From Renibacterium sp. (lineage in GTDB: Bacteria; Actinomycetota; Actinomycetes; Actinomycetales; Micrococcaceae): DNA of 64,000 nt. The stretch covers positions 310,001-374,000 of the forward strand of contig JAFOLH010000006.1 in assembly GCA_017419405.1 (NCBI GenBank), written 5' to 3'. This document shows positions 44,150-64,000 of the stretch, one piece after another (the first letter of the stretch is position 1; each line of letters begins with the position of its first letter). The translations under genes and the position numbers were made by a program. The notes beneath the pieces are model-generated. The model was not told the origin of the DNA. It ran no database searches and saw only the letters and a program-made list of their open reading frames with translations.

Positions 44150-44932
44150 TCACTTACTGCTGGCGGGGATAGATGGGTCTGGATTAGGTTGGCTTTGGCT
44201 GAAAGATTCGGTGTTCCCGGTGTAGCGGTAAAGCCGGGGCGGGCGGTGCTTGCCGCCCTGCAAATACTCTTCGGTGGCCACGATGTGCGGCGTAGCCTTG
44301 AGCTGGCGTCGGAAGTTCGCCGGATCTAGCTCCCGGCCGAGCACTGCCTCGTAGACTTCGCGGACTTGGGCCAGGGTGAATTTCTCGCCCAGCAAGTGGT
44401 ACGCGATCGAGGCGTATTCGAGCTTGTTGCGCAATCGCCACAGGGCGTAGGCCACGATCTCATTGTGGTCGAATGCCAAGTCCCGGGCCGAGGCGCTGCC
44501 CAAAGCGTCCGCCTTGAACCAGCGCACATTGTCCGATTCGAGTGCCAGGGCAGCTTCGGTCGGCTGCACCAGGGCCCAGTACACAATCGAGACGACGCGC
44601 GGAGCCAGCACCGCCGGCGAGCAATTCGCCGCCCTTTGCAGTCCGCCGAAGGCATACAGCTGCTCGAGGTACCGGGGGTTCAATCCGGTGGTTTCCGCGA
44701 GGTTTCGCGAGGCCGCGCTTTGCAGTGATTCGGAGTGGCTCAACGGGCCGCCGGGCAGTGCCCATTGGCCCTTGAACGGCTCCCGGATCCGACGGACCAA
44801 AGGCAACCAGAGGCTTGGCCGACTTTCGCCTTCTGCGGTGCGGAGCGCGAAGATCACGGTGGAAATCGCCAACGACGGCGGTGCCGACTGGCGTTCGGAG
44901 ACGTTCGCCGTGATTGGATAACCCACACTCAT
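44150..44932 (-). CDS. nrtR: NrtR: NUDIX-related NAD-metabolism repressor
   Basis: A 260-residue regulator joining a NUDIX-like domain to a winged helix. The NUDIX part (IFALR, then WLPLVRRIREPFKGQWALPGGPLSHSESLQSAASRNLAETTGLNPRYLEQLYAFGG) senses ADP-ribose or related metabolites. The C-terminal part (LEYASIAYHLLGEKFTLAQVREVYEAVLGRELDPANFRRQLKAT) binds DNA. The NUDIX box is degenerate, consistent with a ligand sensor rather than an enzyme. It heads the nadABC operon and is preceded by a 47-bp perfect palindrome that contains a recognisable NrtR-type box. Confidence 0.93.
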   Translation of the reverse strand: MSVGYPITANVSERQSAPPSLAISTVIFALRTAEGESRPSLWLPLVRRIREPFKGQWALPGGPLSHSESLQSAASRNLAETTGLNPRYLEQLYAFGGLQRAANCSPAVLAPRVVSIVYWALVQPTEAALALESDNVRWFKADALGSASARDLAFDHNEIVAYALWRLRNKLEYASIAYHLLGEKFTLAQVREVYEAVLGRELDPANFRRQLKATPHIVATEEYLQGGKHRPPRLYRYTGNTESFSQSQPNPDPSIPASSK

Positions 44933-45950: not shown

Positions 45951-46759
45951 ACTCCCCCACTGGCCACGACGCACCCGCGATCCGGGTGCAGGGCATAACC
46001 AAGTCCTACCGCGACCTCCACGTGCTGCGCGGCGTGGACTTCGAGGTGGCCCGCGGCAGCATCTTCGCCCTGCTCGGCTCGAATGGCGCTGGGAAGACCA
46101 CCATGGTGAAGATTCTGGCCACGCTGCTCAAACCGGATGCCGGATCGGCTTCGGTCCAAGGATTCGACGTCGCCGGGCAAGCCGCCGAGATCCGCGCATC
46201 GATCAGCCTGACCGGGCAGTTCGCGGCAGTCGACGACATCCTCTCCGGCCGGGAGAACCTGGTCATGGTGGCCAAGTTGCGGCATCTGGACCATCCCGGC
46301 CAGATCGCCGACGAGTTGCTCGCCCGGTTCAGCCTCACCGAGGCCGCGACCCGGAAAGTCGCCGCCTATTCCGGCGGCATGCGCCGCCGTCTGGACATTG
46401 CCATGAGTCTGATCGGCCGGCCTCCGGTGATCTTCCTCGACGAACCCACCACCGGATTGGACCCGGAAGCCCGCCTCGAAGTCTGGCAGGCAGTGAAGGA
46501 ACTGGCCGCCGCCGGAACCACGGTACTGCTCACCACGCAGTACTTGGACGAGGCCGAACAGCTCGCTGACCGGATCGCGATCCTGCATCAAGGCAAGATC
46601 ATTGCGAACGGGACCCTCGCCGAGCTGAAGCGATTGCTGCCGCCCGCCGAGGTCGAATATGTGGAAAAACAACCCAGCCTGGAGGACATCTTCTTGGTCC
46701 TGGTGGGCTCCGACGGCACAGAGGAACTTTCTGCCGCTTCCCGGAAGGAATCATCATGA
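45947..46759 (+). CDS. ABC exporter ATPase (DrrA-like)
   Basis: A 270-residue nucleotide-binding protein. Walker A is LLGSNGAGKTTMVKIL, the signature is YSGGMRRRLDIAMSLIGRPP and Walker B is VIFLDEPTTGLDPEARLEVWQ. The H-loop is LLTTQYLDEAEQLADRIAI, which has Q instead of the usual H at the tQYLdEAd position typical of DrrA drug exporters. The C-terminal segment (PSLEDIFLVL) matches the DrrA tail. It energises the adjacent permease. ATG overlaps the DUF1048 stop. Confidence 0.92.
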   Translation: MNSPTGHDAPAIRVQGITKSYRDLHVLRGVDFEVARGSIFALLGSNGAGKTTMVKILATLLKPDAGSASVQGFDVAGQAAEIRASISLTGQFAAVDDILSGRENLVMVAKLRHLDHPGQIADELLARFSLTEAATRKVAAYSGGMRRRLDIAMSLIGRPPVIFLDEPTTGLDPEARLEVWQAVKELAAAGTTVLLTTQYLDEAEQLADRIAILHQGKIIANGTLAELKRLLPPAEVEYVEKQPSLEDIFLVLVGSDGTEELSAASRKESS

Positions 46760-47523
46760 GCACGCACCTTTTCGCGGATACCGGCGTCCTACTCGGCCGT
46801 TCCATGCGGCACATCACCCGCAGCGTGGACACCATCATCACCACGGCGATCACGCCGATCGCCCTGATGCTGCTTTTCGTCTTCGTCTTCGGCGGCGCGA
46901 TCAAAGGCACCATCGGCAACGAGAATTACGTCAACTACCTGCTTCCGGGCATCATGCTGATTGCGATCGCCTCAGGCATCGCCTACACCGCGATGCGCTT
47001 GTTCACCGATCTGCAAAGCGGCATTTTCGAACGCTTCCAATCCATGCCGATCAACCGCTCTTCGGTGCTCTGGGCGCACGTGCTGACTTCGCTGGCCGCC
47101 AACGCGATCACCCTGGTGATCATCGTCCTGGTGGGTCTGTTGATGGGGTTCCGCAGTTCGGCGGGCCCGCTGGCCTGGCTCGGCGTCGTCGGCATCCTGA
47201 TGCTGTTCACCCTGGCCCTGACCTGGCTGGCGATCATCGCCGGCCTTTCGGCCAAGTCCGTGGACGGCGCCACCGCCTTCTCCTACCCGCTGATCTTCCT
47301 GCCGTTCATCTCGTCGGCCTTCGTGCCGACCGCGACCATGCCTGGCCCGGTCCGCTGGTTCGCCGAAAATCAACCGGTGACCTCGATCGTGAACACGATC
47401 CAGAACCTGCTCGCCGATCGCCCGGTCGGCGGCGAGATCTGGATCGCACTGGCTTGGTGCCTCGGCATCCTGCTCATCGCCTATGGCTTCGCGATGGTCG
47501 TCTATCGCCGCCGCATCGCCTGA
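46756..47523 (+). CDS. ABC-2 type exporter permease (DrrB-like)
   Basis: A 255-residue membrane protein with about six helices and ABC-2/DrrB phrases: SVDTIITTAITPIALMLLFVFVFGGAI, NYVNYLLPGIMLIAIASGIAYTAMRLFTDLQSGIFERFQSMPINRSSVLWAHVLTSL, and FVPTATMPGPVRWFAENQPVT. Such pumps expel drugs, lipids or antibiotic peptides. ATG overlaps the ATPase stop by 4 bases. It is the last gene of the PadR operon. Confidence 0.92.
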   Translation: MSTHLFADTGVLLGRSMRHITRSVDTIITTAITPIALMLLFVFVFGGAIKGTIGNENYVNYLLPGIMLIAIASGIAYTAMRLFTDLQSGIFERFQSMPINRSSVLWAHVLTSLAANAITLVIIVLVGLLMGFRSSAGPLAWLGVVGILMLFTLALTWLAIIAGLSAKSVDGATAFSYPLIFLPFISSAFVPTATMPGPVRWFAENQPVTSIVNTIQNLLADRPVGGEIWIALAWCLGILLIAYGFAMVVYRRRIA

Positions 47524-47546: not shown

Positions 47547-48011
47547 TTATTCGGCAGACGCCTCGAAAAGCGGCAGCGTCCGCGCTTCGAAATGCGTGTC
47601 CAAGGCGAGCATCGTGGAGGACCGCACCACCACCTTGGTCGCCGAAATCGCATCCAGCACCCGCTGCAGGTCCGAATTCGACCGGGCCGCGACCTTGACC
47701 AGCATGTCGCTCTCCCCGGAGACCGTATGCACGTCGATGATCTCCGGAATATCCACCAGAGCATCCACCACGGCTCCGTGCCCCTTGTCCTGCTCGATGG
47801 TCAGAAAACAGAACGCCAGCACCGGGTAGCCGAAATTCATCGGCTGCAGACTCGGCGCCCAAGAGCGGATCGCCCCGGTAGCCTGGAGCTTGTCCAGACG
47901 GGAGACCAAGGTCGCCCGGGCAACCCCCAGCTGGCGCGAAGCTTCAAGTATCGAGGTGCGAGGTTCAAGAGTGTAAAGCTTGACAATCCTTGCATCGAGT
48001 GCGTCCACCAC
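47547..48011 (-). CDS. Lrp/AsnC-family regulator
   Basis: A 154-residue regulator from GTG 48011 (a TTG at 48050 would add 13 residues). The N-terminal helix-turn-helix is DALDARIVKLYTLEPRTSILEASRQLGVARATLVSRLDKLQATGAIRSW. The C-terminal RAM/ligand domain follows: VSGESDMLVKVAARSNSDLQRVLDAI. AGGA stands about eight bases before GTG. It is divergent from an amino-acid permease and a 2-oxoacid dehydrogenase operon. As with BkdR of Pseudomonas, it may activate that operon in response to a branched-chain amino acid (inference). Confidence 0.87.
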   Translation of the reverse strand: MVDALDARIVKLYTLEPRTSILEASRQLGVARATLVSRLDKLQATGAIRSWAPSLQPMNFGYPVLAFCFLTIEQDKGHGAVVDALVDIPEIIDVHTVSGESDMLVKVAARSNSDLQRVLDAISATKVVVRSSTMLALDTHFEARTLPLFEASAE

Positions 48012-48124
48012 TGGGCAATCCTTAAGGTTGAAATACCGTTCCCCCGACAATATGGTAAGTGTCGTGGGTCACACAATTGTGACTTCGACCCCTTCAGAGA
48101 TCCTTCCGAAGCAGAAAGCTTTCA

Positions 48125-49516
48125 ATGGCGACCGCAGATACCGCGAGCAGTACCGGCAGCACCCAGAAATCCCTGAACCGGGGGCTCAAACCACGTCAGC
48201 TGATCATGATGGCCCTGGGCTCTTCGATCGGTACCGGGCTGTTCATCGGCTCGGGCACCGCGATCGGCGTTGCCGGACCGGCGGTGCTGATCTCCTTCCT
48301 GGTCGCCGGAGCCATCATCATCTTCGTAATGCGGATGCTCGGCGAAATGGCGGCCGCGCACCCGAACAGCGGGGCCTTTTCCTACTATGCCGAGCGGGCG
48401 ATGGGCCGGGTCGCCGGTGCCACCGTGGGCTGGCTCTGGTGGGTGCAGATCGTCGTGGTGATCGCCGCCGAGGCAACCGGCGCGGCCCAGATCCTGAGCA
48501 GTTTGTGGCCGGTGCTGCCGCAATGGCTGCTCGCTTTGGTGTTCATGGTGGTCTTCACCGCGATCAATTTGCTGGGCGTCGGCAAGTTCGGCGAAATGGA
48601 ATTCTGGTTCGCGATCCTGAAGGTCGCGGTGATCGTGCTCTTCCTGGTGCTCGGTGCACTGCTGATCACCGGCGTCATCCCGAGCAGCTCCGGCCCCGGC
48701 TTCGGAAACCTGTTCGCCCACGGCGGCTTCCTCCCCCAGGGCTGGGCCGGCGTGGCCGCCGGGCTGTTGATCGTGATGTTCGCCTTCGGCGGCACCGAGC
48801 TGGTCACCATCGCCGCCGCCGAAACGGAAAACGCCGAGCACAACGTGGGCCGCGCGATCCGTTCGGTGCTGTGGCGGATCCTGGTCTTCTACATCGGCTC
48901 GGTGTTGGTCATGGTCACGGTATTGCCCTGGAATTCGGAGGAGACCAAGAATCCATTCGCCTCGGTGCTCGCCGAAGCCAACATCCCGTTCGCCAAGGAA
49001 CTCACCACCTTGGTGATTGCGATCGCGGTGCTTTCCGCACTCAACGCCAATCTCTACGGTTCCTCGCGGATGATCTTCTCACTCAGCCAGCGCGGCCTGG
49101 CCCCGAAGTTCCTCAGCCGGGTCAATGCCGACCGGGTTCCGCGATTCGCGGTGATCGCTTCAGTGCTCTTCGGCTTCGTGGCCGTGCTGCTGAACTACCT
49201 CGACCCGGAGAACACGCTCCGGATCTTGCTGCAGCTCGTCGGCTCCACGGTCTTGATGATGTGGGTTTCCACCTGCGTTTCGCAGATCATCCTGCGCCGC
49301 CGCGCGGATGCCGCCGGCGAGAAGATGGCACTGCCGATGTGGGGATTCCCCTACCTGTCCTGGTTGGCCCTGGCGCTATTGGCCGCGGTATTCGTCCTGG
49401 GGTTCACCGACCCCAGCGTCGGCATTCAGCTGCTGAGCACCATAGGACTCACGGCCGGAATCGCGATTCTGAGTTGGATTGGCATCAAATTGTCAGCCAA
49501 AAAAGGTTCTGACTAG
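48125..49516 (+). CDS. APC-family amino-acid permease
   Basis: A 463-residue permease with twelve helices. The hallmarks of the AAT/GABA-aromatic group are LKPRQLIMMALGSSIGTGLFIGSGTAIGVAGPAVLISFLVAGAIIIFVMRMLGEMAA, NSGAFSYYAERAMG and FGGTELVTIAAAETENAEHNVGRAIRSVLWRI. Substrate: probably an aromatic, aliphatic or GABA-type amino acid. It lies between the Lrp regulator and the dehydrogenase operon, 108 bases before E1-alpha, so it may feed that complex with amino-acid precursors. Confidence 0.92.
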   Translation: MATADTASSTGSTQKSLNRGLKPRQLIMMALGSSIGTGLFIGSGTAIGVAGPAVLISFLVAGAIIIFVMRMLGEMAAAHPNSGAFSYYAERAMGRVAGATVGWLWWVQIVVVIAAEATGAAQILSSLWPVLPQWLLALVFMVVFTAINLLGVGKFGEMEFWFAILKVAVIVLFLVLGALLITGVIPSSSGPGFGNLFAHGGFLPQGWAGVAAGLLIVMFAFGGTELVTIAAAETENAEHNVGRAIRSVLWRILVFYIGSVLVMVTVLPWNSEETKNPFASVLAEANIPFAKELTTLVIAIAVLSALNANLYGSSRMIFSLSQRGLAPKFLSRVNADRVPRFAVIASVLFGFVAVLLNYLDPENTLRILLQLVGSTVLMMWVSTCVSQIILRRRADAAGEKMALPMWGFPYLSWLALALLAAVFVLGFTDPSVGIQLLSTIGLTAGIAILSWIGIKLSAKKGSD

Positions 49517-49624: not shown

Positions 49625-50698
49625 GTGAGCATCGCACCACGCCATGAACGCACGACCACGGCACCGACCCTCGAGGTGCCCGCAGCCGAGCTGACCGTCG
49701 AACAACAACGTGAGTTGTACCGGCTGCTCGCCGCAGTGCGGCACCTCGATGTTTCCGCCATCGCCTGGCAACGCCAAGGCATCATCCCGGGTTACGCTCC
49801 GGGGCGCGGGCAGGAAGCCGCCCAGGTGGGCAGCGCGTTCGCGTTGGAGCGGGGGTCGGACTTCGTTTTCCCCACCTATCGGGAAGTCGGCGTGGCCCGG
49901 GCTTGGGGTGTGGACATGGTGGCCTACATGTCCACGCACAAAGCCACCTGGCATGGCGGCCTCTACGATCCTGCGGCCAGCCGTTTCGCCCCGATCCAAG
50001 CCGTGGTCGGCGGATCCGTGCTGCACGCCGTCGGCTGGGCGCACGGCCAGACCCTGGACGGCCGGAAGGCCGACGGCACCCTGAACGTGGCGATCAGCTA
50101 CTTCGGCGATGGCGCTTCCTCCCAGGGCGATGTGCACGAAGCGATGAACTTCGCGGCGATCTTCAAAGCGCCGGTGATCTTCTTCGTGCAGAACAACGGC
50201 TGGGCGATCTCGGTGCCCACCGAACGGCAGGTGGCCGGCGGCTCGGTCGCGGCCCGGGCTCTCGGCTATGGCATGGCCACTGTCCAGGTGGACGGCAACG
50301 ACGTCGAAGCGGTGTACGCGGCGACCAAAGCCGCCCGCACGTACGCGGCGGCCGGCCATGGCCCGGTACTGATCGAGGCGATGACCTACCGTCGCGGCCC
50401 GCATTCGACCAGTGACGACCCCGGCCGCTACCGGAGTCTGGAAGACGAACGGACCGACGGCGGCCAAGACCCGGTGGACCGCTACGCCGAGGCGTTGCGC
50501 ACCGCCGGCGTCGCCGACGACGAGTTCTTCGCACAGGCCCTGGCCGAGGCGCAGGCCGAAGAGAACGCCATCCGCGAAGGCGTCGCCGCGCTGGGCCCGC
50601 GGCCGGGCACCGAGATGTTCGACTTCGTCTTCCAGGAACCGACCGGGGCGTTGCGCGCCCAAGCCAAGCACTGGCGCGAGGAGAGCGAACATGTCTGA
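49625..50698 (+). CDS. 2-oxoacid dehydrogenase E1 component, alpha subunit
   Basis: A 357-residue thiamine-diphosphate subunit. The TPP motif runs ISYFGDGASSQGDVHEAMNFAAIFKAPVIFFVQNNGWAISVPTERQ (GDG to NN). The loop RRGPHSTSDDPGRYRS is the site phosphorylated in mitochondrial counterparts. It begins with the EQQRELYRLLAAVR head and GYAPGRGQEAAQVG typical of pyruvate and branched-chain 2-oxoacid E1-alpha. Start GTG 49625. Substrate is not fixed by sequence: pyruvate, branched-chain 2-oxoacids and acetoin are all possible. Confidence 0.93.
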   Translation: MSIAPRHERTTTAPTLEVPAAELTVEQQRELYRLLAAVRHLDVSAIAWQRQGIIPGYAPGRGQEAAQVGSAFALERGSDFVFPTYREVGVARAWGVDMVAYMSTHKATWHGGLYDPAASRFAPIQAVVGGSVLHAVGWAHGQTLDGRKADGTLNVAISYFGDGASSQGDVHEAMNFAAIFKAPVIFFVQNNGWAISVPTERQVAGGSVAARALGYGMATVQVDGNDVEAVYAATKAARTYAAAGHGPVLIEAMTYRRGPHSTSDDPGRYRSLEDERTDGGQDPVDRYAEALRTAGVADDEFFAQALAEAQAEENAIREGVAALGPRPGTEMFDFVFQEPTGALRAQAKHWREESEHV

Positions 50699-51725
50699 GT
50701 CAGTGATCGAGAAGCAGGCCGCGGCCGCGTACCCGGCACCGGCGGTCGAAGAGCTTTCGATGCAGAAAGCGATCAACCGCGCACTGGCTGATGCCCTGCG
50801 CGCAGACCCCAAGGTCCTGGTGCTGGGTGAGGACGTCGGCCAGCTGGGCGGCGTCTTCCGGGTCACCGCGGATCTGCAGGCCGAATTCGGCGCCGACCGG
50901 GTTTTCGACACCCCCTTGGCCGAATCCGGCATCCTGGGCATGAGCGTCGGCTTGGCGATGGCCGGCTACCACCCGATCCCGGAAGTCCAATTCGACGGCT
51001 TCGCCTACCCTGCGGTCAACCAGATCATCGCGCAGATCGGCCGGATGAACTACCGCAGCCGCGGCAAATTGCCGATGCCGATCACGCTACGGGTCCCGAG
51101 CTTCGGCGGGCTGCGCGCCCCGGAGATGCACACCGAAAGCCTCGAAGCGCTGTTCGCGCACGTACCCGGGCTCAAGGTGGTTTCCCCGGCCAATCCGCAC
51201 CAGGCGTACCACCTGATGCGTTTGGCCGCGACCATGCCGGATCCGGTGATGTTCTTGGAACCGAAGCCGCGGTACTGGCAGAAGGAAGCGGTCGATCTGG
51301 CCGAACCCGGGATGCTCGACGGCGCCCGGATCGCCCGGGAAGGCAAGCACGTCACCCTGGTCGCTTACGGCGCCATGGTGGCCCGCTGCTTGCAGGTCGC
51401 CGACCTGGCAGCCGAGGACGGCATCCAGGTCGAGGTGGTCGATCTGCGCTGGATCAAGCCCTTGGACATCGCCACGCTGGCGGGTTCGGTCGCCAAAACC
51501 AAGCGCGCCGTCGTCGTGCATGAAGCGCCGCTGACCGCCGGGATGGGCGGCGAAATCGCGGCGCAACTGACGCAGGCCTGCTTCGACCTGCTCAAAGCAC
51601 CGGTTGAACGGGTGACCGGCTTCGACGTACCGTATCCCTCAGGAGATTTGGAAGACGAATACGTGCCGAATGTGGACCGGATCCTGTTCGGCATCCAACG
51701 GGTATTGGAGTACCGACGTGGCTGA
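50691..51725 (+). CDS. 2-oxoacid dehydrogenase E1 component, beta subunit
   Basis: A 344-residue partner of E1-alpha. It begins with LSMQKAINRALADALRADPKVLVLGEDVGQLGGVFRVT and has DRVFDTPLAESGILGMSVGLAMAGYHPIPEVQFDGFAYPAVNQIIAQIGRMNYRSRGKLPMPITLRVP and EVVDLRWIKPLDIATLAGSVAKTKRAVVVHEAPLTAGMGGEIAAQL. The C-terminal transketolase domain is complete. ATG 50691 overlaps the E1-alpha stop by 8 bases, so the two are co-translated and probably form an alpha2-beta2 enzyme. Confidence 0.94.
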   Translation: MSESVIEKQAAAAYPAPAVEELSMQKAINRALADALRADPKVLVLGEDVGQLGGVFRVTADLQAEFGADRVFDTPLAESGILGMSVGLAMAGYHPIPEVQFDGFAYPAVNQIIAQIGRMNYRSRGKLPMPITLRVPSFGGLRAPEMHTESLEALFAHVPGLKVVSPANPHQAYHLMRLAATMPDPVMFLEPKPRYWQKEAVDLAEPGMLDGARIAREGKHVTLVAYGAMVARCLQVADLAAEDGIQVEVVDLRWIKPLDIATLAGSVAKTKRAVVVHEAPLTAGMGGEIAAQLTQACFDLLKAPVERVTGFDVPYPSGDLEDEYVPNVDRILFGIQRVLEYRRG

Positions 51726-52047
51726 ACTTTCCTTCCCGTTGCCGGACCTCGGCGAGGGGTTGCTCGATGCGACCGTGCTGGAGTGGCTGGTTGCCGAGGG
51801 CGACCAGATCGAGCGCAATACTCCGATGGTCGAGGTGGAAACCACCAAATCCTCTGTGGAGCTGCCTTCGCCGCAGGCCGGAAAAGTCCTGCGGATTTTC
51901 GGCGAGCCAGGCGAGGTGATCCAGGTCGGCGATCCGCTGATCATCTTCGAAGTCCCGGATGACACCGCCGGCATCGTGGGCACCGTGCCGGTGGAAGAAG
52001 CCCCGAAGCGCCGGGTGAAACTTTCCCTGAACCTGGACGAGGACTGA
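51718..52047 (+). CDS. Free lipoyl-domain protein (E2 lacking a catalytic domain)
   Basis: A 109-residue protein containing only a lipoyl domain: SFPLPDLGEGLLDATVLEWLVAEGDQIERNTPMVEVETTKSSVELPSPQAGKVLRIFGEPGEVIQVGDPLIIFEV. The lipoylation lysine is Lys44 in ETTKSS. A normal E2 would continue with a peripheral-subunit-binding domain and a ~230-residue acyltransferase core. Instead there is a ~25-residue polar tail and a stop. GTG 51718 overlaps the E1-beta stop by 8 bases, and the TGA overlaps the next ATG (TGATG). It probably accepts the acyl group from E1. Confidence 0.9.
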   Translation: MAELSFPLPDLGEGLLDATVLEWLVAEGDQIERNTPMVEVETTKSSVELPSPQAGKVLRIFGEPGEVIQVGDPLIIFEVPDDTAGIVGTVPVEEAPKRRVKLSLNLDED

Positions 52048-52841
52048 TGCCGCCGGCGGCGGAAGGCCACGCTGTGGAGGGCCGTGCATCCACGCTGCGG
52101 GTGCATCGTTTCGGTGCCGGCTCCGGCCGCCCGCTGCTGATGCTGCACGGCTTCGGCTCCTCGACCGAATTCAATTGGGTGCAGTCGGGCTGGATCCAGC
52201 CGCTCACCGAAGCCGGCCGCCGGGTGATCGCAGTAGACCTGCCGGGGCACGGTGGCAACCCTGCGCCGGTGGAGTCGGACGAATATGCACCGAGCCGGAT
52301 CCGGGCGGAAATCCTGCAGATCCTGCTCGACGAAGGCGCCAAGCCGCTGGCCGACGGCGATCCGGAGTCCGGCGTGGATATCGTCGGCTACTCGCTCGGT
52401 GCCCGGTTCGCCTGGGAATTCGGTGCCACGCAGCCCGAGTTGGTGCACCGGATGGTGCTCGGCGGGCCGTCTGCCGGCGATCCGCTGGCGATGTTCGATC
52501 TGGCCGAGGCCGAAGAATTCCTGGCCTCCGGCGCGCCGATTAAGGACCCGATGACCGCGGATCTGATCGGCTGGGCCCGGCAGATACCGGGCAACGACAT
52601 GTTCGCGCTGCTCTCGATGGCCCGCGCGGTCAAGACCGAACCCTATGATGCCGCGGAATCGGTGCCGAAAATGCCGATCCTGTTCGTGGCCGGAGAAAAG
52701 GACCAGGTGGCGGCGGAGATGCCGAGGCTGGCAGAACTCAGCGGCCACGCGGAAATTCTGATCCTGCCGGCCCGGAACCATTTCAACGCGATCACCTCAC
52801 GGGCCTTCAAACAGGCCGCGATCGAATTTCTCGCTTCATAA
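52047..52841 (+). CDS. Alpha/beta-fold hydrolase coupled to the lipoyl protein
   Basis: A 264-residue alpha/beta-hydrolase. The oxyanion loop is LLMLHGFGSST, the nucleophile elbow is VDIVGYSLGARFA (Ser116), the acid is likely Asp in VAGEKDQVAAEMP, and the histidine is in LPARNHFNAITS. It begins within the stop codon of the lipoyl-protein gene. In Pseudomonas-type AcoC (acetoin dehydrogenase E2) a lipoyl domain and an alpha/beta-hydrolase domain are fused in one chain; here the same two parts are separate genes. It may transfer or hydrolyse the acyl-lipoamide (inference). It is convergent with the AraC gene. Confidence 0.87.
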   Translation: MPPAAEGHAVEGRASTLRVHRFGAGSGRPLLMLHGFGSSTEFNWVQSGWIQPLTEAGRRVIAVDLPGHGGNPAPVESDEYAPSRIRAEILQILLDEGAKPLADGDPESGVDIVGYSLGARFAWEFGATQPELVHRMVLGGPSAGDPLAMFDLAEAEEFLASGAPIKDPMTADLIGWARQIPGNDMFALLSMARAVKTEPYDAAESVPKMPILFVAGEKDQVAAEMPRLAELSGHAEILILPARNHFNAITSRAFKQAAIEFLAS

Positions 52842-53807
52842 GGCTGCTTCAAGCTGCGGAGTCTTGCGTGCCGCTTGTCGCCGATAACTCGTAGGGCTGG
52901 CGCCGTAGGCTTTTTTGAATGCGGTGCTGAAGGCGAACGGACTGGAAAATCCTAGATCTCTGGCGATTGTGGCTGCTGTGGTTTGTTCTGCGGTGAGCCG
53001 TTCGCTGGCAAGGGTGAGCCGCCATTGGCTGAGATACGACATCGGCGCGACCCCTACCGCAGCCTTGAATCGGGCGGCCAAAGTGGCGCGCGAGACAAAA
53101 CAGCGTCGAGCCAGCTCGGCCACCGTCCAGGATGCAGCTGGCGCTTCATGAATCAGGCTCAGCGCTTGCGCTACCAGCGGGTCCCGGTGCGCATCGGACC
53201 AATTCGGCCCGCCTTGGTGGGCATCTTCGGACCAACGCCGCACCACGTGCAAAAGCAGCAAATCCAGCAACCGGTCCAACGCGCCGGTCTTGCCTTGCTG
53301 TTGCTGGCCCAATTCGCAGTCCAGCAACATCGCCAATGATTTCAGCCGGTCATCTGCGTGGTCCGGAGACACTACGGCCAAGCGTGGCAGCACTGCGGTC
53401 ACCCATGCTCCCACCGCGCCCTCGGCGTCGTAGGTACCGATAAGCATGCTGGTTTGCCCGTGTTGGCTGTTTCCCCAGGTTGAGACACCGAGCGCCATGC
53501 TGACTTCGACGCTGTCGCCGCCTACCGTAGTGCAACCCTGATCCGAGTTGATCCGCACCGACGACTCGGCATCGGGTCGGTCCAGCACCCGATAAGCATC
53601 TGGACCCCGAACAACCGCCACTGAGCCAGCGTCCAAGTGCGTCAAGGCGCCGTCGGCTTCGATCCATGCTGAGCCCTCGAGCACCAACATGAGAGTCAGT
53701 GCTGCCTGGTCTTGGACGTCGAGGCCCCACGGCGGGTCCATCACTATCCTTCTTGTGAAGGCGTGCCGTGCACGGGGTCCATCCAGGTAATAGCTCCAAG
53801 GATCCAT
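52836..53807 (-). CDS. AraC-family transcriptional regulator (cupin_6 type)
   Basis: A 323-residue regulator. The N-terminal half is a cupin-like sensor (AALTLMLVLEGSAWIEADGALTHLDAGSVAVVRGPDAYRV), as in AraC proteins beside oxidoreductases. The C-terminal pair of helix-turn-helices is ASWTVAELARRCFVSRATLAARFKAAVGVAPMSYLSQWRLTLASERL and TTAATIARDLGFSSPFAFSTAFKKAYGASPTSYR. It is divergent from the NmrA-like gene 90 bases away, the usual pairing, so it probably regulates that enzyme. The last 6 bases overlap the convergent hydrolase. Confidence 0.92.
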   Translation of the reverse strand: MDPWSYYLDGPRARHAFTRRIVMDPPWGLDVQDQAALTLMLVLEGSAWIEADGALTHLDAGSVAVVRGPDAYRVLDRPDAESSVRINSDQGCTTVGGDSVEVSMALGVSTWGNSQHGQTSMLIGTYDAEGAVGAWVTAVLPRLAVVSPDHADDRLKSLAMLLDCELGQQQQGKTGALDRLLDLLLLHVVRRWSEDAHQGGPNWSDAHRDPLVAQALSLIHEAPAASWTVAELARRCFVSRATLAARFKAAVGVAPMSYLSQWRLTLASERLTAEQTTAATIARDLGFSSPFAFSTAFKKAYGASPTSYRRQAARKTPQLEAAL

Positions 53808-53897
53808 GGCCTAAGCATAAATCGAATTAGACGATAACGTATGCCCTACAGACTCTGGACCATGTTTCGTCTGAATGATCTTAGATTGACTACCTTC

Positions 53898-54752
53898 ATG
53901 ACCTCAAGAGAAAAGCCCAGAAAAGTCCTCGTCACCGGCGCGACCGGACGAACCGGCAGCCGAATTGTCGACCGGCTGGCAGCACGCGGCGTTGCATATC
54001 GCGCCGGATCCAGAAGCGGCGACCCTCGTTTTGACTGGCATGATCGACTCAGCTGGCCCGCTGCACTGAACGGAATTGACGCTGTCTACCTTTGTTATGC
54101 GCCAGATTTGGCTGCCCCCGGCGCCGCTGAATTGATCGGTGAGTTCACCGCCGCAGCAGCCGCCGCGGGCGTGCGACATGCAGTCCTGCTCACCGGGCGC
54201 GGCGAAGCAGGCGCGGAACGTGCAATAAAGGCAGTCCAGTCGAACATCTCGCAGTGGACAATTCTTCAAGCGTCCTGGTTTGCGCAGAATTTCAGCGAAC
54301 ATGTGCTGCTCGGCCCAATCCAGCGCGGCCGGTTGCTCTTGCCCGCTGGCGAGGTGCACGAACCGACCATCGATTTGGACGACTTTGCCGACGCCGCAGT
54401 GAATGTCCTCACCGAGGACGGCCATGCGGGCCGGACCTACGAACTCACCGGACCGGAATCACTGAGCTTCGCGCAGATGGCGCAACGACTTTCTGCGGCT
54501 ACCGGCCGCGAAATCAGTTACCACGCAAGCGATGTCGCCGAGTTCGTCGCAGATTTGGCGATTGCGGGCATGCCGGCCGGAGATGCAGTGCCTTTGGCCG
54601 AGATGCTTAGCAGCATTTTCGACGGCCGGAATGCCGAGGTAAGTGAAGATCTCGCCGCAATCCTGGGCCGGCCGACGCGAAGCTTCGCCGAGTATGCCAA
54701 CGCAGCGGCAAGCACCGGGCTCTGGCACGCCAGCGACCCGGCAGGAGTCTAA
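53898..54752 (+). CDS. NmrA-like NAD(P)-binding atypical SDR protein
   Basis: A 284-residue Rossmann protein starting at ATG 53898 (MTSREKPRKVLVTGATGRTGSRIVDRL). The GxTGxxG motif sits at residues 14-20. Later features (YLCYAPDLAAPGAAELIGEF, SNISQWTILQASWFAQNF and the LTGPESLSFAQMAQRLS C-terminal piece) mark the NmrA/QOR2-like branch, which lacks the SDR YxxxK catalytic pair and often senses redox cofactors. An upstream in-frame start would add 19 unlikely residues. It is divergent from an AraC regulator. Base composition of the leader is more AT-rich than the average. Confidence 0.88.
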   Translation: MTSREKPRKVLVTGATGRTGSRIVDRLAARGVAYRAGSRSGDPRFDWHDRLSWPAALNGIDAVYLCYAPDLAAPGAAELIGEFTAAAAAAGVRHAVLLTGRGEAGAERAIKAVQSNISQWTILQASWFAQNFSEHVLLGPIQRGRLLLPAGEVHEPTIDLDDFADAAVNVLTEDGHAGRTYELTGPESLSFAQMAQRLSAATGREISYHASDVAEFVADLAIAGMPAGDAVPLAEMLSSIFDGRNAEVSEDLAAILGRPTRSFAEYANAAASTGLWHASDPAGV

Positions 54753-54876
54753 AAACAAGCCGATGACGGCGGCGACGCGCCAAGGCTGGTGCGTTTCCGC
54801 CGTCGTCGGCGTTTGCGGGTTTAAACTGAAGCGCAAAGCCACATGTGTTCACTTCCCACTCATTTTGAGGAACGCA

Positions 54877-55716
54877 ATGGACCGCAATTTTGCTGACCCC
54901 GCGCGTGAGCGCTTCCTACTAGACCGCTACCGATTGGCCGAACGGATCGGCATCGGAGCCTGTGCCGCGGTCTTCCGAGCCGAAGACCTGCGGCTCAAAC
55001 GCAACGTGGCGGTCAAGATCTTCTCCCCCGGACCCACCAGTTGGGAATCCGAACTGGCGATCCTGTGCCGGCTGCAGCATCCGTTCCTGGTCGGCATTCT
55101 GGATTCGGGCAGCTGGGACGACGAATTCGAAGGCACCCGCCCGTTCCTGGTGATGGAATTCATCGACGGTTGCGACCTGCGCACCCTGCTGGCGCGGCAT
55201 CCTGGCGGATTCACCCCGGCCAAAACCGCCCGCCTCGGCTGGGCACTGGCCCAGGGGCTCGACGCGGTTCATTCGGACGGCGTCGTGCATCGGGACGTGA
55301 AGCCGGCGAACATCCTGATGGGCGGCTCCGGATTGCCCAAGCTCTGCGACTTCGGAGTCTCCAGGTTGCACGACGGCGCCGAAGCCACGATCCCCGGGGT
55401 GACCATCGGCACCGCGAGCTACCTCAGCCCGGAACAGGCGCTGGGCGAACCAGTCCACGCCAGTGCGGACATCTACTCCCTGGGCCTGGTGCTTCTGGAG
55501 TGCCTCACCGGGGCCAAAGTATTCCCGGGATCGGCTTTGGAGGCCTCGATCGCCCGACTGCTCCATGACCCGTCGATACCGGAGTGGATCGACACCGATT
55601 GGCGGCAACTGCTCACTGCGATGACGGCACGCGGCGCCGCCCAACGACCGACTGCCGCCGAATGCGGCGAGGCGCTCTTCGAGCTGCAACTTCGACAGCC
55701 CGCGCACGCCGCTTGA
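54877..55716 (+). CDS. Soluble Hanks-type Ser/Thr protein kinase
   Basis: A 279-residue kinase with a complete catalytic domain. The glycine loop is RIGIGACAAVFRAED, the catalytic lysine is Lys47 (NVAVKIFS), the catalytic loop is VVHRDVKPANILM, the magnesium loop is LCDFGVSRL, and the activation region ends TIGTASYLSPEQAL. The C-lobe (SADIYSLGLVLLECLTG) is intact. Unlike PknB-type kinases it has no membrane helix and no extracellular sensor domain, so it is cytosolic. The TSS and RBS are typical (TTGAGGAACGCA before ATG 54877). Its targets are unknown. The next element is a 59-bp palindrome. Confidence 0.92.
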   Translation: MDRNFADPARERFLLDRYRLAERIGIGACAAVFRAEDLRLKRNVAVKIFSPGPTSWESELAILCRLQHPFLVGILDSGSWDDEFEGTRPFLVMEFIDGCDLRTLLARHPGGFTPAKTARLGWALAQGLDAVHSDGVVHRDVKPANILMGGSGLPKLCDFGVSRLHDGAEATIPGVTIGTASYLSPEQALGEPVHASADIYSLGLVLLECLTGAKVFPGSALEASIARLLHDPSIPEWIDTDWRQLLTAMTARGAAQRPTAAECGEALFELQLRQPAHAA

Positions 55717-55727
55717 TCACTCCCCCG

Positions 55728-55786
55728 TCGAGTGGCCGGATCTGCAGGTCAAAACGGGGTTTTGACCTGCAGATCCGGCCACTCGA
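55728..55786. repeat. Palindromic intergenic element, 28-base perfect arms
   Basis: A perfect palindrome with 28-base arms around GGG (55756-55758). The outer part begins TCGAGTGGCCGGATCTGCAG. It lies 12 bases past the kinase stop and may act as a terminator or a mobile palindrome. Its ends share a CGAGTG word with the element at 45056-45120. Confidence 0.75.
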
Positions 55787-55933
55787 TTCAGGTTCTGCTG
55801 CCGTCGTGCGATCGATTCACCGGACAATCCCACTCTAGACATCTGATGTTTAACTGCCTATGCTGAAGCCAAATAACCACCCGAGTCCAAGCCCGGGCGG
55901 TCCATTGGGGGGCGCCTCTCTTCGGAGCGACGC

Positions 55934-59546: not shown

Positions 59547-61007
59547 GTGAGTTCAAGCGTGCAGACAATCGACGGCGACGTGCTGCGGAACGCCGGCAAA
59601 GTCATCGCGGTGCATATCAACTATCCATCCCGCGCAGCACAACGCGGACGCACCCCGAAACTGCCGTCCTACTTCCTCAAACCCGGCACTTCGCTGAGCA
59701 TCAGCGGCGTCGTCGAGCGGCCGTCGGGGTGCGAACTGCTCGGTTTCGAAGGTGAAATCGCGCTCATCATCGGCACCGCAGCCCGCCGCGTGTCCCCCGC
59801 CGAAGCCTGGCCGCACGTGCAATGGGTGACCGCCAGCAATGACCTCGGCGTCTATGATCTGCGCTACGCGGACAAGGGCTCCAATCTCCGTTCCAAAGGC
59901 GGTGACGGCTTCACCCCGATCGGTCCGGGACTGATCGCCGCTGCCGAGGTCGACCCCGCCGGATTGCGCATCCAGACCTGGCGCAACGGCGAACTGGTGC
60001 AGGACGACGACACTGCGGATTTGCTCTTCCCATTCAGCCAGCTGATCGCGGACCTGAGCCAGCTGATCACGCTGGAACCGGGCGATGTCATCCTCACCGG
60101 CACGCCTGCCGGCGCTTCGGTCGCGATGCCCGGCGACGTCGTCGAAATCGAAGTTTTTGCCGGCGGCACGTCCACCGGCAGGCTGCGCACCGAGGTGACT
60201 GAAGGCACCGCTCCGTTGGCCGACTACGGTGCCCGGCCCCAGGCCGACGATTTGCAACGCGCCGAGGCCTGGGGAACGCCGGCCGCGGTGCCGGAACCCG
60301 CTCTGACCCCGGAGCTCAAGGCCAAACTGGCCCGGGTCGCCACCGCCACGCTGAGCTCGCAGTTGCGCAAACGCGGATTCAACAACGTCTCGATCGACGG
60401 CCTCTCCGCCACTCGACCGGGCGAAAAGGTCGTCGGAACCGCACGGACCTTGCGCTACATCCCGAACCGGGAAGACCTGTTCAAGGAGTTCGGCGGCGGC
60501 TACAACGCGCAGAAACGGGCCATCGACTCGCTCAATGAAGGCGAAGTGCTGGTCATGGAGGCCCGCGGCGAAAAAGGCACCGGAACCCTCGGCGACATCC
60601 TCGCCCTGCGGGCCATGCACAATGGTGCGGCGGCGATCATTTCCGACGGCGGTGTGCGTGACTACACCGCGGTCGCCGAGCTGGAGCTGCCGGTCTTCGC
60701 AGCCAATCCGCATCCGGCGGTGCTGGGCCGCAAACACGTGCCGTGGGCGGTCGACGAGACCGTCGGCTGCGGCGGCGCCGCAGTGCAGCCCGGCGACATC
60801 ATCGTGGCCGACGACGACGGCATCCTGGTCATCCCGCCGGCTCTGGCCGCCGAATTGGCCGACGACTCCTTGCAGCAAGAACACGAGGAGAGCTTCATCG
60901 CGCAAATGGTGCGGGAAGGCCACGCTGTGGACGGGTTGTACCCGATGAACGCCGGTTGGAAAGAAAAATACGCGGTGTGGGCCCGGGAAAACCCACTGCA
61001 GCGATGA
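59547..61007 (+). CDS. Fusion: fumarylacetoacetate-hydrolase domain plus RraA-like domain
   Basis: A 486-residue two-domain protein. The N-terminal FAH/HpaG-like domain (GFEGEIALIIGTAARRVSPAEAW, ASNDLGVYDLRYADKGSNLRSKGGDGFTPIGPGLI, GDVILTGTPAGASVAMPGDVVEIEV) carries the metal-binding Glu-Glu-Asp set. The C-terminal RraA/HMG-aldolase-like domain (RRAIDSLNEGEVLVMEARGEKGTGTLGDILALRAMHNGAAAIISDGGVRDY) has the GD-x~20-RD active-site motif. The first probably catalyses decarboxylation or isomerisation of a carboxymethyl-hydroxymuconate-type intermediate. The second may be a pyruvate aldolase. RBS TGAGGAG before GTG 59547. Confidence 0.85.
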   Translation: MSSSVQTIDGDVLRNAGKVIAVHINYPSRAAQRGRTPKLPSYFLKPGTSLSISGVVERPSGCELLGFEGEIALIIGTAARRVSPAEAWPHVQWVTASNDLGVYDLRYADKGSNLRSKGGDGFTPIGPGLIAAAEVDPAGLRIQTWRNGELVQDDDTADLLFPFSQLIADLSQLITLEPGDVILTGTPAGASVAMPGDVVEIEVFAGGTSTGRLRTEVTEGTAPLADYGARPQADDLQRAEAWGTPAAVPEPALTPELKAKLARVATATLSSQLRKRGFNNVSIDGLSATRPGEKVVGTARTLRYIPNREDLFKEFGGGYNAQKRAIDSLNEGEVLVMEARGEKGTGTLGDILALRAMHNGAAAIISDGGVRDYTAVAELELPVFAANPHPAVLGRKHVPWAVDETVGCGGAAVQPGDIIVADDDGILVIPPALAAELADDSLQQEHEESFIAQMVREGHAVDGLYPMNAGWKEKYAVWARENPLQR

Positions 61008-61666
61008 GCGTCGAAACCGGGGCAACCAGCAAGTCCGAACTCGCCTACAACTCGATCCGAGACCGCATCCTCTCCGGCGAATATGCTCCCGGGCACCGGC
61101 TGGTGCTGTCCCGGATCGCCGAGGACCTCGCGGTCAGCGTCGTCCCGGTGCGCGAAGCGATCCGGCGGCTCGAAGCCGAGAAGCTGCTCACTTTCGAGCG
61201 GAATGTCGGCGCCACGGTGGCCGGCATCGACCCCACGGAATACCTGTACACGATGCAGACCCTGAGCATCGTGGAAAGTGCCGCGACGGCACTCTCCCTG
61301 CCCGCGCTCGGCGCGGTGGACCTGGCCGAGGCGCAACGGATCAATGCGGCGATGAAGGACTGCCTGGCGCAATTCGATCCGGTGCGCTTCACCTCGCTCA
61401 ACCACGACTTCCACGAAGTGCTGTACCGGTCCTGCCCCAACCCGCATCTTCTGGATCTGGTGCACCGCGGCTGGAACCGGCTCAACGCACTGCGCACCTC
61501 GACCTTCAACTTCATCCCCGGGCGCGCCGCACAGTCGGTCGCCGAACACGAAGAGCTGCTTCGGCTCATTGAATCGCGCGCAGCCCCGGACGTGGTCGAG
61601 GCCGCCGCCCGGGCACACCGCTCCGCCACCCTCGACGCCTATCTCAGCCAACAAAAATCCGCATAG
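61004..61666 (+). CDS. GntR-family regulator (FCD/FadR-like)
   Basis: A 220-residue regulator. The N-terminal winged helix is LAYNSIRDRILSGEYAPGHRLVLSRIAEDLAVSVVPVREAIRRLEAEKLLTFERNVGATVAGI. The rest is an all-helical FCD effector domain (SLNHDFHEVLYRSCPNPHLLDLVHRGWNRL) with the His/Asp ligands for a metal. ATG overlaps the previous stop (ATGA). It probably represses the operon via the GTATAC palindrome at 59502-59513 until a pathway acid is present. Confidence 0.9.
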   Translation: MSVETGATSKSELAYNSIRDRILSGEYAPGHRLVLSRIAEDLAVSVVPVREAIRRLEAEKLLTFERNVGATVAGIDPTEYLYTMQTLSIVESAATALSLPALGAVDLAEAQRINAAMKDCLAQFDPVRFTSLNHDFHEVLYRSCPNPHLLDLVHRGWNRLNALRTSTFNFIPGRAAQSVAEHEELLRLIESRAAPDVVEAAARAHRSATLDAYLSQQKSA

Positions 61667-61674
61667 GGAGAACC

Positions 61675-62619
61675 ATGAAATTCCGTTCCGATCCGGCGAC
61701 ACATTTACGCGGATCCTTTGCCGCGATGTTCACCCCGTTCCGCGACTCAGGTGCGGTGGACCACGATTCGCTGCGCCGCATGGTCGAGTGGCAGATCGCC
61801 TCCGGCTCGCACGGCGTCACCATCGGCGGTTCCACCGGGGAACCCGGTGCGCAATCCGTCGAAGAACGCGCCGAAGCGATCCGCACCGTGGCCGCCGCCG
61901 TCGGCGACCGGGTGCCGTTCCTGGCCGGAACCGGCACCGCGCAGCTGCCGGAGACCCTCGAGTTGACCCAAGCCGCATTCGACGCCGGAGTCGACGCCTC
62001 GATGATCATCACGCCGTACTACGCCCGGCCCACGCAGGAAGCGCTCTACCAGTGGTACGCCACGATCGCCCGGGAATTCCCGAGCATGCCGTTCATCATC
62101 TACAACGTGCCCTCGCGCACCGCCGTCGACATCGCCCCGGAAACCGTCGGCCGCTTGTTCCGCGATTTCGAGAACATCGTGGGCATCAAAGAAACCACCA
62201 AGGACTTCGAGCACTTTTCCCGGGTGCTCCATGTGGCGGGCAAGGATCTGCTGGTCTGGAGCGGGCTGGAGTTGCTCTGCCTGCCGCTCATGGCGCTCGG
62301 CGGCGTCGGATTCATCTCCGCACTGGCCAACATCGCGCCCAAAGCCTCCGCGGACATGTACAACGCCTGGATCGCGGGCGATCTGGAGACCGCGCAGCGC
62401 ATCCACTACGGCGTGCATCCGCTGGTCGACCTGCTCTTCGCGGAAACCAATCCGGCGCCGGCCAAATGGCTCATGGCGCAGCGCGGTTTGATCTCCTCGG
62501 ACTACGTGCGCCCGCCGCTGATCCACCCGACCGAGGGCGGATTGGTGAAGATCAATGCCTTGCTCGAAGCCGGCAAGGACTACCTGACGCCAGTCGACGC
62601 TGCTGAGGTGACCGCATGA
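61675..62619 (+). CDS. Dihydrodipicolinate-synthase-family pyruvate aldolase/lyase
   Basis: A 314-residue class I aldolase of the DapA fold. It opens RGSFAAMFTPFRDSGAVDHDSLRRMVEWQIASGSHGVTIGGSTGEPGAQSVEERAEAIRTVAAAVGDRVPFLAGTGTAQLPETLELTQAAFDAGVDASMIITPYYARPTQEALYQWYATIA. The Schiff-base lysine sits in NIVGIKETTKDF and the Tyr in FIIYNVPSRT. In homoprotocatechuate-type operons such proteins often replace HpaI, cleaving the final oxo-hydroxy acid to pyruvate and succinate semialdehyde. It starts 8 bases after the GntR stop and overlaps the next start. Confidence 0.87.
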   Translation: MKFRSDPATHLRGSFAAMFTPFRDSGAVDHDSLRRMVEWQIASGSHGVTIGGSTGEPGAQSVEERAEAIRTVAAAVGDRVPFLAGTGTAQLPETLELTQAAFDAGVDASMIITPYYARPTQEALYQWYATIAREFPSMPFIIYNVPSRTAVDIAPETVGRLFRDFENIVGIKETTKDFEHFSRVLHVAGKDLLVWSGLELLCLPLMALGGVGFISALANIAPKASADMYNAWIAGDLETAQRIHYGVHPLVDLLFAETNPAPAKWLMAQRGLISSDYVRPPLIHPTEGGLVKINALLEAGKDYLTPVDAAEVTA

Positions 62620-64000
62620 GCCAGCACTACATCCCGGAGAATCTGCCGGCCAAAATCCAGCACCACATCAACGGCGAGTTCGTCGATTCGATCAACGGCG
62701 CCACGTTCGAGGTGCTCGACCCGGTGTCCAACACCACGTACACCACCGCTGCAGCCGGGCAGAAGGAAGACATCGACGCCGCAGTCGCCGCAGCGCGTGA
62801 AGCATTCGTCAACGGCCCCTGGCCTCGGATGAAAGCCCGGGAACGCGCCCGGGTGTTGAACCGGATCGCCGACGCCGTGGAGGCTCAGGAGGACCGGCTC
62901 GCCGAGCTGGAAACCTTCGACACCGGCCTGCCGATCAAGCAGGCCCGTGGTCAGGCGCAGCGCGCGGCGGAGAACTTCCGGTTCTTCGCAGACCTGATCG
63001 TGGCCCAGTTCGACGACGCCATGAAGGTCCCCGGTCTGCAGATCAACTACGTGAACCGCAAACCGATCGGCGTGGCCGGCCTGATCACGCCGTGGAACAC
63101 CCCGTTCATGCTGGAATCCTGGAAACTGGCACCCGCGCTGGCCACCGGCAACTGCGTGGTGCTCAAACCGGCCGAATTCACCCCGCTTTCGGCCTCGCTC
63201 TGGGCGACGATCTTCAAAGACGCCGGCCTGCCCGACGGCGTGTTCAACTTGGTCAACGGCCTCGGCGAAGCAGCCGGCGACGCCTTGGTGAAGCACCCGG
63301 ATGTGCCGCTGATCTCCTTCACCGGCGAGACCACCACCGGGCAGACCATCTTCCGGAACGCCGCCGAGCACCTCAAGGGCCTGTCCATGGAGCTCGGCGG
63401 CAAGTCGCCCGCGGTGATCTTCGAGGATGCGGACCTGGACGCCGCGATCGATTCCACGTTGTTCGGCGTGTTCTCGCTCAACGGCGAGCGCTGCACCGCG
63501 GGATCCCGGATCCTGGTTCACCGCAGCGTGTACGACGAGTTCTGCGAGCGCTATGCGGCCCGGGCCAAGAACATCGTGGTGGGCGATCCGCACGATCCGG
63601 CCACCGAGGTCGGCGCATTGGTGCACCCGGAGCACTACGCCAAGGTGATGTCCTATGTGGAAATCGGCAAGACCGAAGGCCGGCTGTTGGCCGGTGGCGG
63701 GCGGCCGGACGATCTGCCCGCGGGTCAGGAGAACGGCAGCTACGTCTCCCCCACGGTCTTCGCCGACGTCGCACCCAGCGCGCGGATCTTCCAAGAGGAG
63801 ATCTTCGGTCCGGTGGTGGCGATCACGCCTTTCGACACCGATGAAGAGGCGCTCCAGTTGGCGAACGGCGTGAAATACGGCCTGGCCGCGTACATCTGGA
63901 CCCGCGACCTGACCCGGGCCCACAACTTCGCGCAGCGTACCGAAGCCGGCATGGTCTGGCTCAACTCGCACAATGTCCGGGACCTGCGGACCCCGTTCGG
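62616..64000 (+). CDS. hpaE: 5-carboxymethyl-2-hydroxymuconate semialdehyde dehydrogenase (3' end outside window)
   Basis: The first 461 codons of an NAD-dependent aldehyde dehydrogenase, open to the window's end. HpaE-like start: HHINGEFVDSINGATFEVLDPVSNTTYT. Catalytic motifs: NAD loop FTGETTTGQ, general base Glu in LSMELGGKSPAVIFEDADL, nucleophile Cys in FSLNGERCTAGSRILVHRSVYDEF, and EEIFGPVVAITPF. HpaE oxidises the semialdehyde from homoprotocatechuate ring cleavage. ATG 62616 overlaps the previous stop (ATGA). Downstream steps such as a ring-cleavage dioxygenase probably lie just outside the window. Confidence 0.88.
   Translation, partial: MSQHYIPENLPAKIQHHINGEFVDSINGATFEVLDPVSNTTYTTAAAGQKEDIDAAVAAAREAFVNGPWPRMKARERARVLNRIADAVEAQEDRLAELETFDTGLPIKQARGQAQRAAENFRFFADLIVAQFDDAMKVPGLQINYVNRKPIGVAGLITPWNTPFMLESWKLAPALATGNCVVLKPAEFTPLSASLWATIFKDAGLPDGVFNLVNGLGEAAGDALVKHPDVPLISFTGETTTGQTIFRNAAEHLKGLSMELGGKSPAVIFEDADLDAAIDSTLFGVFSLNGERCTAGSRILVHRSVYDEFCERYAARAKNIVVGDPHDPATEVGALVHPEHYAKVMSYVEIGKTEGRLLAGGGRPDDLPAGQENGSYVSPTVFADVAPSARIFQEEIFGPVVAITPFDTDEEALQLANGVKYGLAAYIWTRDLTRAHNFAQRTEAGMVWLNSHNVRDLRTPF

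Follow-up and report, generated by a model that had tools for sequence, protein, structure and literature searches.

The 64,000-nt stretch of the Renibacterium sp. genome analysed here (contig JAFOLH010000006.1, positions 310,001 to 374,000 of the forward strand; hereafter, the window) carries an unusual 2-oxoacid dehydrogenase operon. At positions 49625-52841 of the window, four overlapping genes form a single run, which we call the quartet: both subunits of a thiamine diphosphate (ThDP)-dependent E1, a free-standing lipoyl protein (LIP) and an alpha/beta-hydrolase (ABH). These genes had been noticed in an earlier reading of the sequence (the original prediction), and their coordinates and domains were confirmed as follows:

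49625-50698, + strand: E1-alpha of a ThDP-dependent 2-oxoacid dehydrogenase (E1_dh, 257 bits; GTG start, 357 aa)
50691-51725, + strand: E1-beta (Transket_pyr and Transketolase_C; 344 aa)
51718-52047, + strand: LIP, free-standing lipoyl carrier (Biotin_lipoyl, 63.6 bits; GTG start, 109 aa)
52047-52841, + strand: ABH, serine alpha/beta-hydrolase (Abhydrolase_1, 63 bits; 264 aa)

E1-alpha overlaps E1-beta by 8 nt, E1-beta overlaps LIP by another 8 nt, and LIP and ABH meet in the sequence TGATG. As originally noted, the operon holds neither an E2 core nor an E3. Pfam searches did not find the E2 acyltransferase core (2-oxoacid_dh, PF00198) in any of the operon proteins or the peripheral subunit-binding domain (E3_binding, PF02817) in LIP. 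In the genome as a whole, we counted five E2 cores, five E1_dh matches and one lipoamide dehydrogenase scoring over the family cut-off. The latter lies at C6:288504, beside an E2 gene and unlinked to the operon; an E3 is thus encoded elsewhere in the genome, and the quartet may share this enzyme. Three other E1-E2 pairs are present, and each of their E2s combines a lipoyl domain, an E3_binding domain and a catalytic core. A full-length E2 paired with the quartet's E1 had been named as a sign against the original prediction; here the evidence is ambiguous, as each of the three E2s found has an E1 of its own, and one of them could act in trans. In general, the quartet looks like a relative of pyruvate dehydrogenase that has lost the acyl-transfer core; its lipoyl carrier is a small free protein, and its hydrolase is another.

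The arrangement is not restricted to the window. A scan of public genomes revealed the same gene order in Sinomonas, Arthrobacter, Pseudarthrobacter and nine genomes of Cryobacterium, which belongs to a different family and carries the same four genes. Searches of plasmids with E1-alpha and ABH returned general homologues only. Of 197 genomes from the family to which the window belongs, 65 have a full-length LIP and 118 an ABH. A strong ABH match (A1 model) accompanies LIP in 63 of the 65; in the two exceptions, the corresponding position holds a diverged ABH. We saw no LIP without an ABH directly downstream, and no LIP-ABH fusion, in any of these 65 genomes. At all 62 loci measured, LIP is 108-110 aa long, the order is the same and ABH is a separate protein. 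The 8-nt overlap of E1-beta with LIP recurs in 59 of the 62, and the spacing from LIP to ABH ranges from an overlap up to +315 nt. The quartet is thus a genuine, conserved and unusual arrangement of soil actinobacteria.

Both E1 subunits keep the residues expected of an active enzyme. In G. stearothermophilus E1, residues that serve in decarboxylation and lipoyl acylation have been described, including H128 of the beta and H271 of the alpha subunit (PMC2663715). The equivalents of Q81, Y102, I206 and H271 are conserved in 51 of 51 E1-alpha sequences, and those of E59, F82, F85 and H128 in all 71 E1-beta sequences. Together with the Pfam matches, these catalytic residues identify a ThDP-dependent E1 with a lipoyl-acylating active site. 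Its closest structural match is the pyruvate E1 of G. stearothermophilus. In a quick tree, the E1-betas of quartets group in a single clade, which has full support, a long stem and the E2-coupled actinobacterial E1-betas as its sister. We also considered the C-terminus of E1-beta as a mark of lost docking; the segment PSGDLEDEY is distinct in quartets, but E2-coupled E1s have C-terminal extensions as well, and the idea was dropped.

LIP consists of a single lipoyl domain, beyond which Pfam reports only a marginal, overlapping HlyD_3 match. With one such domain, no other and a conserved lysine (Lys44), it qualifies as a free lipoyl carrier, and Lys44 is the presumed site of lipoylation. The last 30 residues are nearly invariant (AGIVGTVP...APKRRVRLS..LDED, alignment A2). 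In position and pattern, this tail resembles the motif VLVGYG...RRRR, which lies between the lipoyl and subunit-binding domains of most actinobacterial E2s inspected. Because of this match, LIP looks like an actinobacterial E2 that ends just before the subunit-binding domain, as far as a sequence pattern can tell. The predicted structure of LIP (predicted local distance difference test score, pLDDT, 43) is too poor for judging whether the tail docks. The motif itself is conserved within an otherwise variable linker in many actinobacterial E2 proteins; it was seen in L083, L085, L088, L090-L092, L095, L100, L101, L103-L108 and L110, as well as in the genome's own E2s (L143-L145).

For ABH (Pfam families Abhydrolase_1/6), we propose the triad Ser116-Asp219-His245, whose serine, aspartate and histidine are invariant in all 106 aligned sequences. 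The structural model is confident (pLDDT 89) and has an esterase/enol-lactonase fold (Z 24). The triad columns, the model and the fold matches together make ABH a serine alpha/beta-hydrolase. Its matches among solved structures and in Foldseek are general esterases, C-C hydrolases and epoxide hydrolases, which do not fix the reaction, and the predicted esterase/enol-lactonase-like fold does not decide between the mechanisms discussed below.

It had been asked whether the four genes always occur together. This is so in one direction: LIP was always found with ABH, but ABH occurs without LIP in 55 family genomes, where it either follows the permease gene or stands by itself next to NrtR-nadA, at the same site. 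These LIP-less hydrolases are under purifying selection (ratio of non-synonymous to synonymous polymorphism, pN/pS, with medians of 0.14-0.38 in the larger groups). Three loci reveal the direction of change by remnants that directly precede an intact ABH: L009, from a publicly available metagenome-assembled genome of Arthrobacter outside the 55 LIP-less genomes, has a fragment of LIP, and L179 and L126 have fragments of E1-beta. In these cases the dehydrogenase was lost recently, and the hydrolase stayed. A quick ABH tree, in which several forks are weak, requires no fewer than 14 switches from the quartet to the non-quartet state or back. It seems that E1-LIP needs ABH, and that ABH is independent of E1-LIP.

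Some further observations concern the hydrolase. Two ABH genes of one LIP-less genus look broken, one having an internal stop (L130, G876) and the other a very short frame (L161, G849). In genus g346 (L111, L112), the quartet's ABH is 31-33% identical to that of the window, and E1-beta and LIP are 65-72% identical; judging by these identities, ABH evolves much faster than its partners. Additionally, a Dormibacterota genome (L023, 5980-6723) carries an ABH of 35% identity with no E1 or lipoyl gene nearby.

The surroundings of the quartet give a hint of the substrate. The genes that flank it are the following:

44150..44932, - strand: NrtR-type NUDIX repressor (NUDIX and NrtR_WHD), nadA adjacent; marks a conserved genomic site
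47547..48050, - strand: Lrp/AsnC regulator (AsnC_trans_reg), divergent from the operon
48125..49516, + strand: amino-acid permease of the APC family (AA_permease, 356 bits)
59547..61007, + strand: hpaG-like fumarylacetoacetate-hydrolase/RraA fusion (PRK12764, 854 bits)
61022..61666, + strand: GntR-family regulator, part of the hpa cluster (62% to the GntR/FCD protein encoded in the G240 hpa cluster)
61675..62619, + strand: hpaI-like DHDPS-family aldolase (TIGR02313, 332 bits, below cut-off; dapA model over cut-off)
62616..64000, + strand: hpaE, 5-carboxymethyl-2-hydroxymuconate semialdehyde dehydrogenase (TIGR02299, 618 bits for a partial protein, cut-off 638)
G000:C2:374172-375059, + strand: HpaD (over cut-off), 172 bases past the window end

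The regulator and the permease upstream had been predicted, and both were borne out by their Pfam matches. The Lrp/AsnC gene is kept beside the quartet in other genomes, Cryobacterium included. The top NCBIfam matches of the permease, both below cut-off, are gamma-aminobutyrate (GABA) permease and AroP. Downstream of the quartet and on the same strand, the window carries hpaG-gntR-hpaI-hpaE; hpaE continues beyond the window end, and its score covers the in-window part only. The hpaG-like protein is 63% identical to the one encoded immediately after ABH in other genera.

The same linkage recurs elsewhere. Positions of both ABH and HpaD were listed for 102 genomes, and in 51 of them HpaD lies within 35 kb of ABH, always downstream and on the same strand; by our own estimate, random placement would, for genomes of such size, bring about 1-2% of HpaD genes that close. 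In Sinomonas and several other genera, hpaG-gntR-hpaE-hpaD follow ABH within about 110-330 nt. Both the window and half of the genomes compared therefore link ABH to genes of the homoprotocatechuate pathway. The mere presence or absence of HpaD was dropped as a test of co-occurrence, since the gene is near-universal in the family (179/197) and only its linkage is informative. The homoprotocatechuate pathway starts from free 4-hydroxyphenylacetate, and the hpa enzymes take free acids, not coenzyme A (CoA) esters.

In Cryobacterium, we found no hpa or nad neighbours in the stretch around the quartet that was looked at. All or part of a cassette of a TrpX-like ABC transporter and a HisC-type aminotransferase lies near the quartet at 8 of the 9 public loci. 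The neighbours of the quartet thus differ between Cryobacterium and the window's family, and in both they suggest aromatic amino acids. 4-Hydroxyphenylpyruvate dioxygenase was absent from all 197 family genomes, with a positive control search in Caulobacter; a test for anti-correlation with the quartet was abandoned, because absence across the whole sample says no more than that these genomes do without the homogentisate route. In the literature, A. arilaitensis is described as using tyrosine, with the gene for 4-hydroxyphenylpyruvate oxidase "not located" (PMC2991359), and for Arthrobacter sp. Rue61a, growth on tyrosine is reported to proceed through 4-hydroxyphenylacetate (PMC3534580). GapMind left out the 4-hydroxyphenylpyruvate-oxidase pathway for lack of knowledge (PMC9007349).

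Other features of the locus vary. In most genomes of the family, the NrtR NUDIX repressor with nadA is a neighbour of the quartet or of the orphan ABH, which makes this a stable site. Between the NrtR and Lrp genes, the window has an ABC transporter pair (ATPase and permease, 45947-47523) with no relative at the corresponding site of the other loci compared. An AraC-type regulator, a gene resembling short-chain dehydrogenases/reductases, a protein kinase and a large secreted protein (52836-58363) separate ABH from hpaG in the window; in Sinomonas and other genera, by contrast, hpaG is next to ABH.

These results allow us to propose, tentatively, that E1 loads LIP by decarboxylating an aromatic 2-oxo acid and that ABH hydrolyses the acyl-lipoyl group, so that the product is free 4-hydroxyphenylacetate. 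We hold this to be a real possibility, somewhat short of an even chance. The alpha2beta2 E1 would use ThDP to decarboxylate the 2-oxo acid, most likely 4-hydroxyphenylpyruvate derived from tyrosine, and would reductively acylate the lipoyl group on Lys44 of LIP. The Ser-His-Asp triad of ABH would then hydrolyse the arylacetyl-S-dihydrolipoyl thioester to arylacetate, and the shared lipoamide dehydrogenase would re-oxidise LIP and yield NADH. The 4-hydroxyphenylacetate produced could feed the linked homoprotocatechuate pathway. LIP would act as a diffusing carrier in place of a scaffolded E2, a role like that of the H-protein in glycine cleavage. The original prediction left a choice between transfer of the acyl group and its hydrolysis to a free acid; the neighbouring 4-hydroxyphenylacetate genes lend hydrolysis support from context, and transfer to CoA stays its main rival. 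New relative to that prediction are the LIP-independent survival of ABH and the hpa/aromatic neighbourhood, which gives a plausible substrate and pathway.

Several findings weigh against this proposal. The substrate is not readable from the E1 sequence, the nearest structural match being a pyruvate E1, and TrpX-like and HisC-type are family labels only, with putative functions. About half of the quartets have no HpaD linkage, many genomes with hpa genes do without a quartet (as the frequency of HpaD indicates), and the linkage of ABH with HpaD may be partly inherited gene order. The LIP-less ABH is also retained under purifying selection, in some cases beside hpa genes. Because it persists under selection without E1-LIP, ABH must, in any model, have a second role or substrate that needs no LIP.

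If ABH were instead an acyltransferase that passes the acyl group from dihydrolipoyl-LIP to CoA, the quartet would form acyl-CoA as an ordinary dehydrogenase does, its E2 being of the AcoC type but divided between two proteins. Alpha/beta-hydrolase folds can serve as acyltransferases, and the strict pairing of LIP with ABH would fit such a role, as would AcoC itself, in which a lipoyl domain and an alpha/beta-hydrolase fold are joined and which is named an acetyltransferase (NF011457). However, ABH and LIP score just 56 and 47 bits with this profile, whose cut-off is 307, and none of the 246 genomes of the class that we surveyed holds an AcoC over the cut-off. Moreover, the hpa enzymes next to ABH take free acids. 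We prefer hydrolysis to CoA transfer because of this feature of the pathway, which is a matter of context only, and regard CoA transfer as unlikely. A second reading makes ABH independent of the dehydrogenase, for example as a hydrolase of arylacetate esters or thioesters co-regulated with aromatic catabolism, with LIP unloaded in trans by the E2 core of another complex. The 55 genomes with a selected, LIP-less ABH, the deletion scars, the three full E2s of the genome and the nearest folds (esterases and an enol-lactonase) all agree with it. It is at odds with the asymmetry of loss, as LIP never lost ABH in 65 genomes whereas ABH often lost LIP, and with Cryobacterium, where the quartet travels as a unit with no hpa or nad neighbours in the stretch inspected. 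We consider it slightly less likely still.

By analogy with mammalian ABHD11, ABH might also maintain lipoyl groups by clearing stalled acyl or other adducts from LIP and other E2s. ABHD11 is found in association with the 2-oxoglutarate dehydrogenase complex and keeps lipoylation functional (PMC7426941). A similar function of ABH would account both for the dependence of LIP on it and for its survival without LIP, but it would leave the acyl hand-off from LIP during normal turnover, and the hpa linkage, unexplained, and the likeness considered is one of fold and function. Maintenance therefore seems improbable. The original prediction had also allowed for a simple frameshift relative to a fused homologue. 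The only sign of a decaying fused gene or a chance arrangement of open reading frames is the deletion scars in some relatives (L009, L126, L179). Conservation refutes this explanation, which has practically no chance of being right: separate LIP and ABH genes at 62 of 62 loci, with gaps of up to +315 nt and no fusion, occur in two families and keep their active sites.

Textbook 2-oxoacid dehydrogenases are scaffolded machines in which the E2 core makes acyl-CoA. If the proposal is true, the quartet represents another way of using lipoate, in which the enzyme becomes an NAD-linked decarboxylase that forms a free acid. It would also be a candidate gene set for the tyrosine step that was not located in the Arthrobacter genome paper (PMC2991359) and is omitted from pathway annotation (PMC9007349). 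The full claim, that the quartet is both a lipoate-dependent decarboxylase yielding free arylacetate through a diffusible carrier and the missing step from 4-hydroxyphenylpyruvate to 4-hydroxyphenylacetate in its Arthrobacter-related hosts, is possible but doubtful.

Among known systems, the E2 of AcoC-type acetoin dehydrogenases (PRK14875/NF011457) is similar to the quartet in combining a lipoyl domain and an alpha/beta-hydrolase with no 2-oxoacid_dh core; the papers searched included none on the hydrolase domain of AcoC. AcoC is one polypeptide, whereas the quartet has two proteins at 62 of 62 loci. Unlike AcoC, LIP retains what looks like a remnant of the linker of actinobacterial E2s, and the quartet is linked to aromatic catabolism and not to acetoin. 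The original prediction of a split AcoC is not supported if descent is meant: the profile scores are below cut-off, the class sample contains no AcoC and the E1-betas form a clade of their own. Because LIP and ABH score so far under the cut-off and the class lacks AcoC, the likeness is best read, from sequence comparison, as convergence in parts, with the arrangement arising independently.

Actinobacterial E1-E2 systems of the pdhABC/bkdABC type are homologous to the quartet (compared with paralogues in the same genome, 42-52% identity for the E1s and about 50% for the lipoyl domain) and have the linker motif VLVGYG..RRRR in common with LIP. The quartet differs from them in having no subunit-binding domain and no catalytic core, and in the separate, fully supported clade of its E1-beta. 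The H protein of glycine cleavage and the LbpA lipoate-binding proteins (PMC6067878) are, like LIP, free carriers with a single lipoyl domain; LIP, too, would shuttle from one enzyme to another, perhaps with a shared E3. In contrast to them, LIP has an E2-type lipoyl domain and would work with a ThDP E1. ABHD11 is, like ABH, a serine alpha/beta-hydrolase and acts on a lipoylated 2-oxoacid dehydrogenase (PMC7426941), but it does so in maintenance of a complete E2 and has no operon with a free lipoyl carrier. Finally, the 4-hydroxyphenylpyruvate oxidase activity of Arthrobacter (Blakley 1977, as cited in PMC2991359) is, as far as that citation conveys, the same reaction as the one proposed here, in related bacteria; the activity cited there is that of an oxidase, whereas the quartet would provide an NAD-linked route through lipoate and Lpd.

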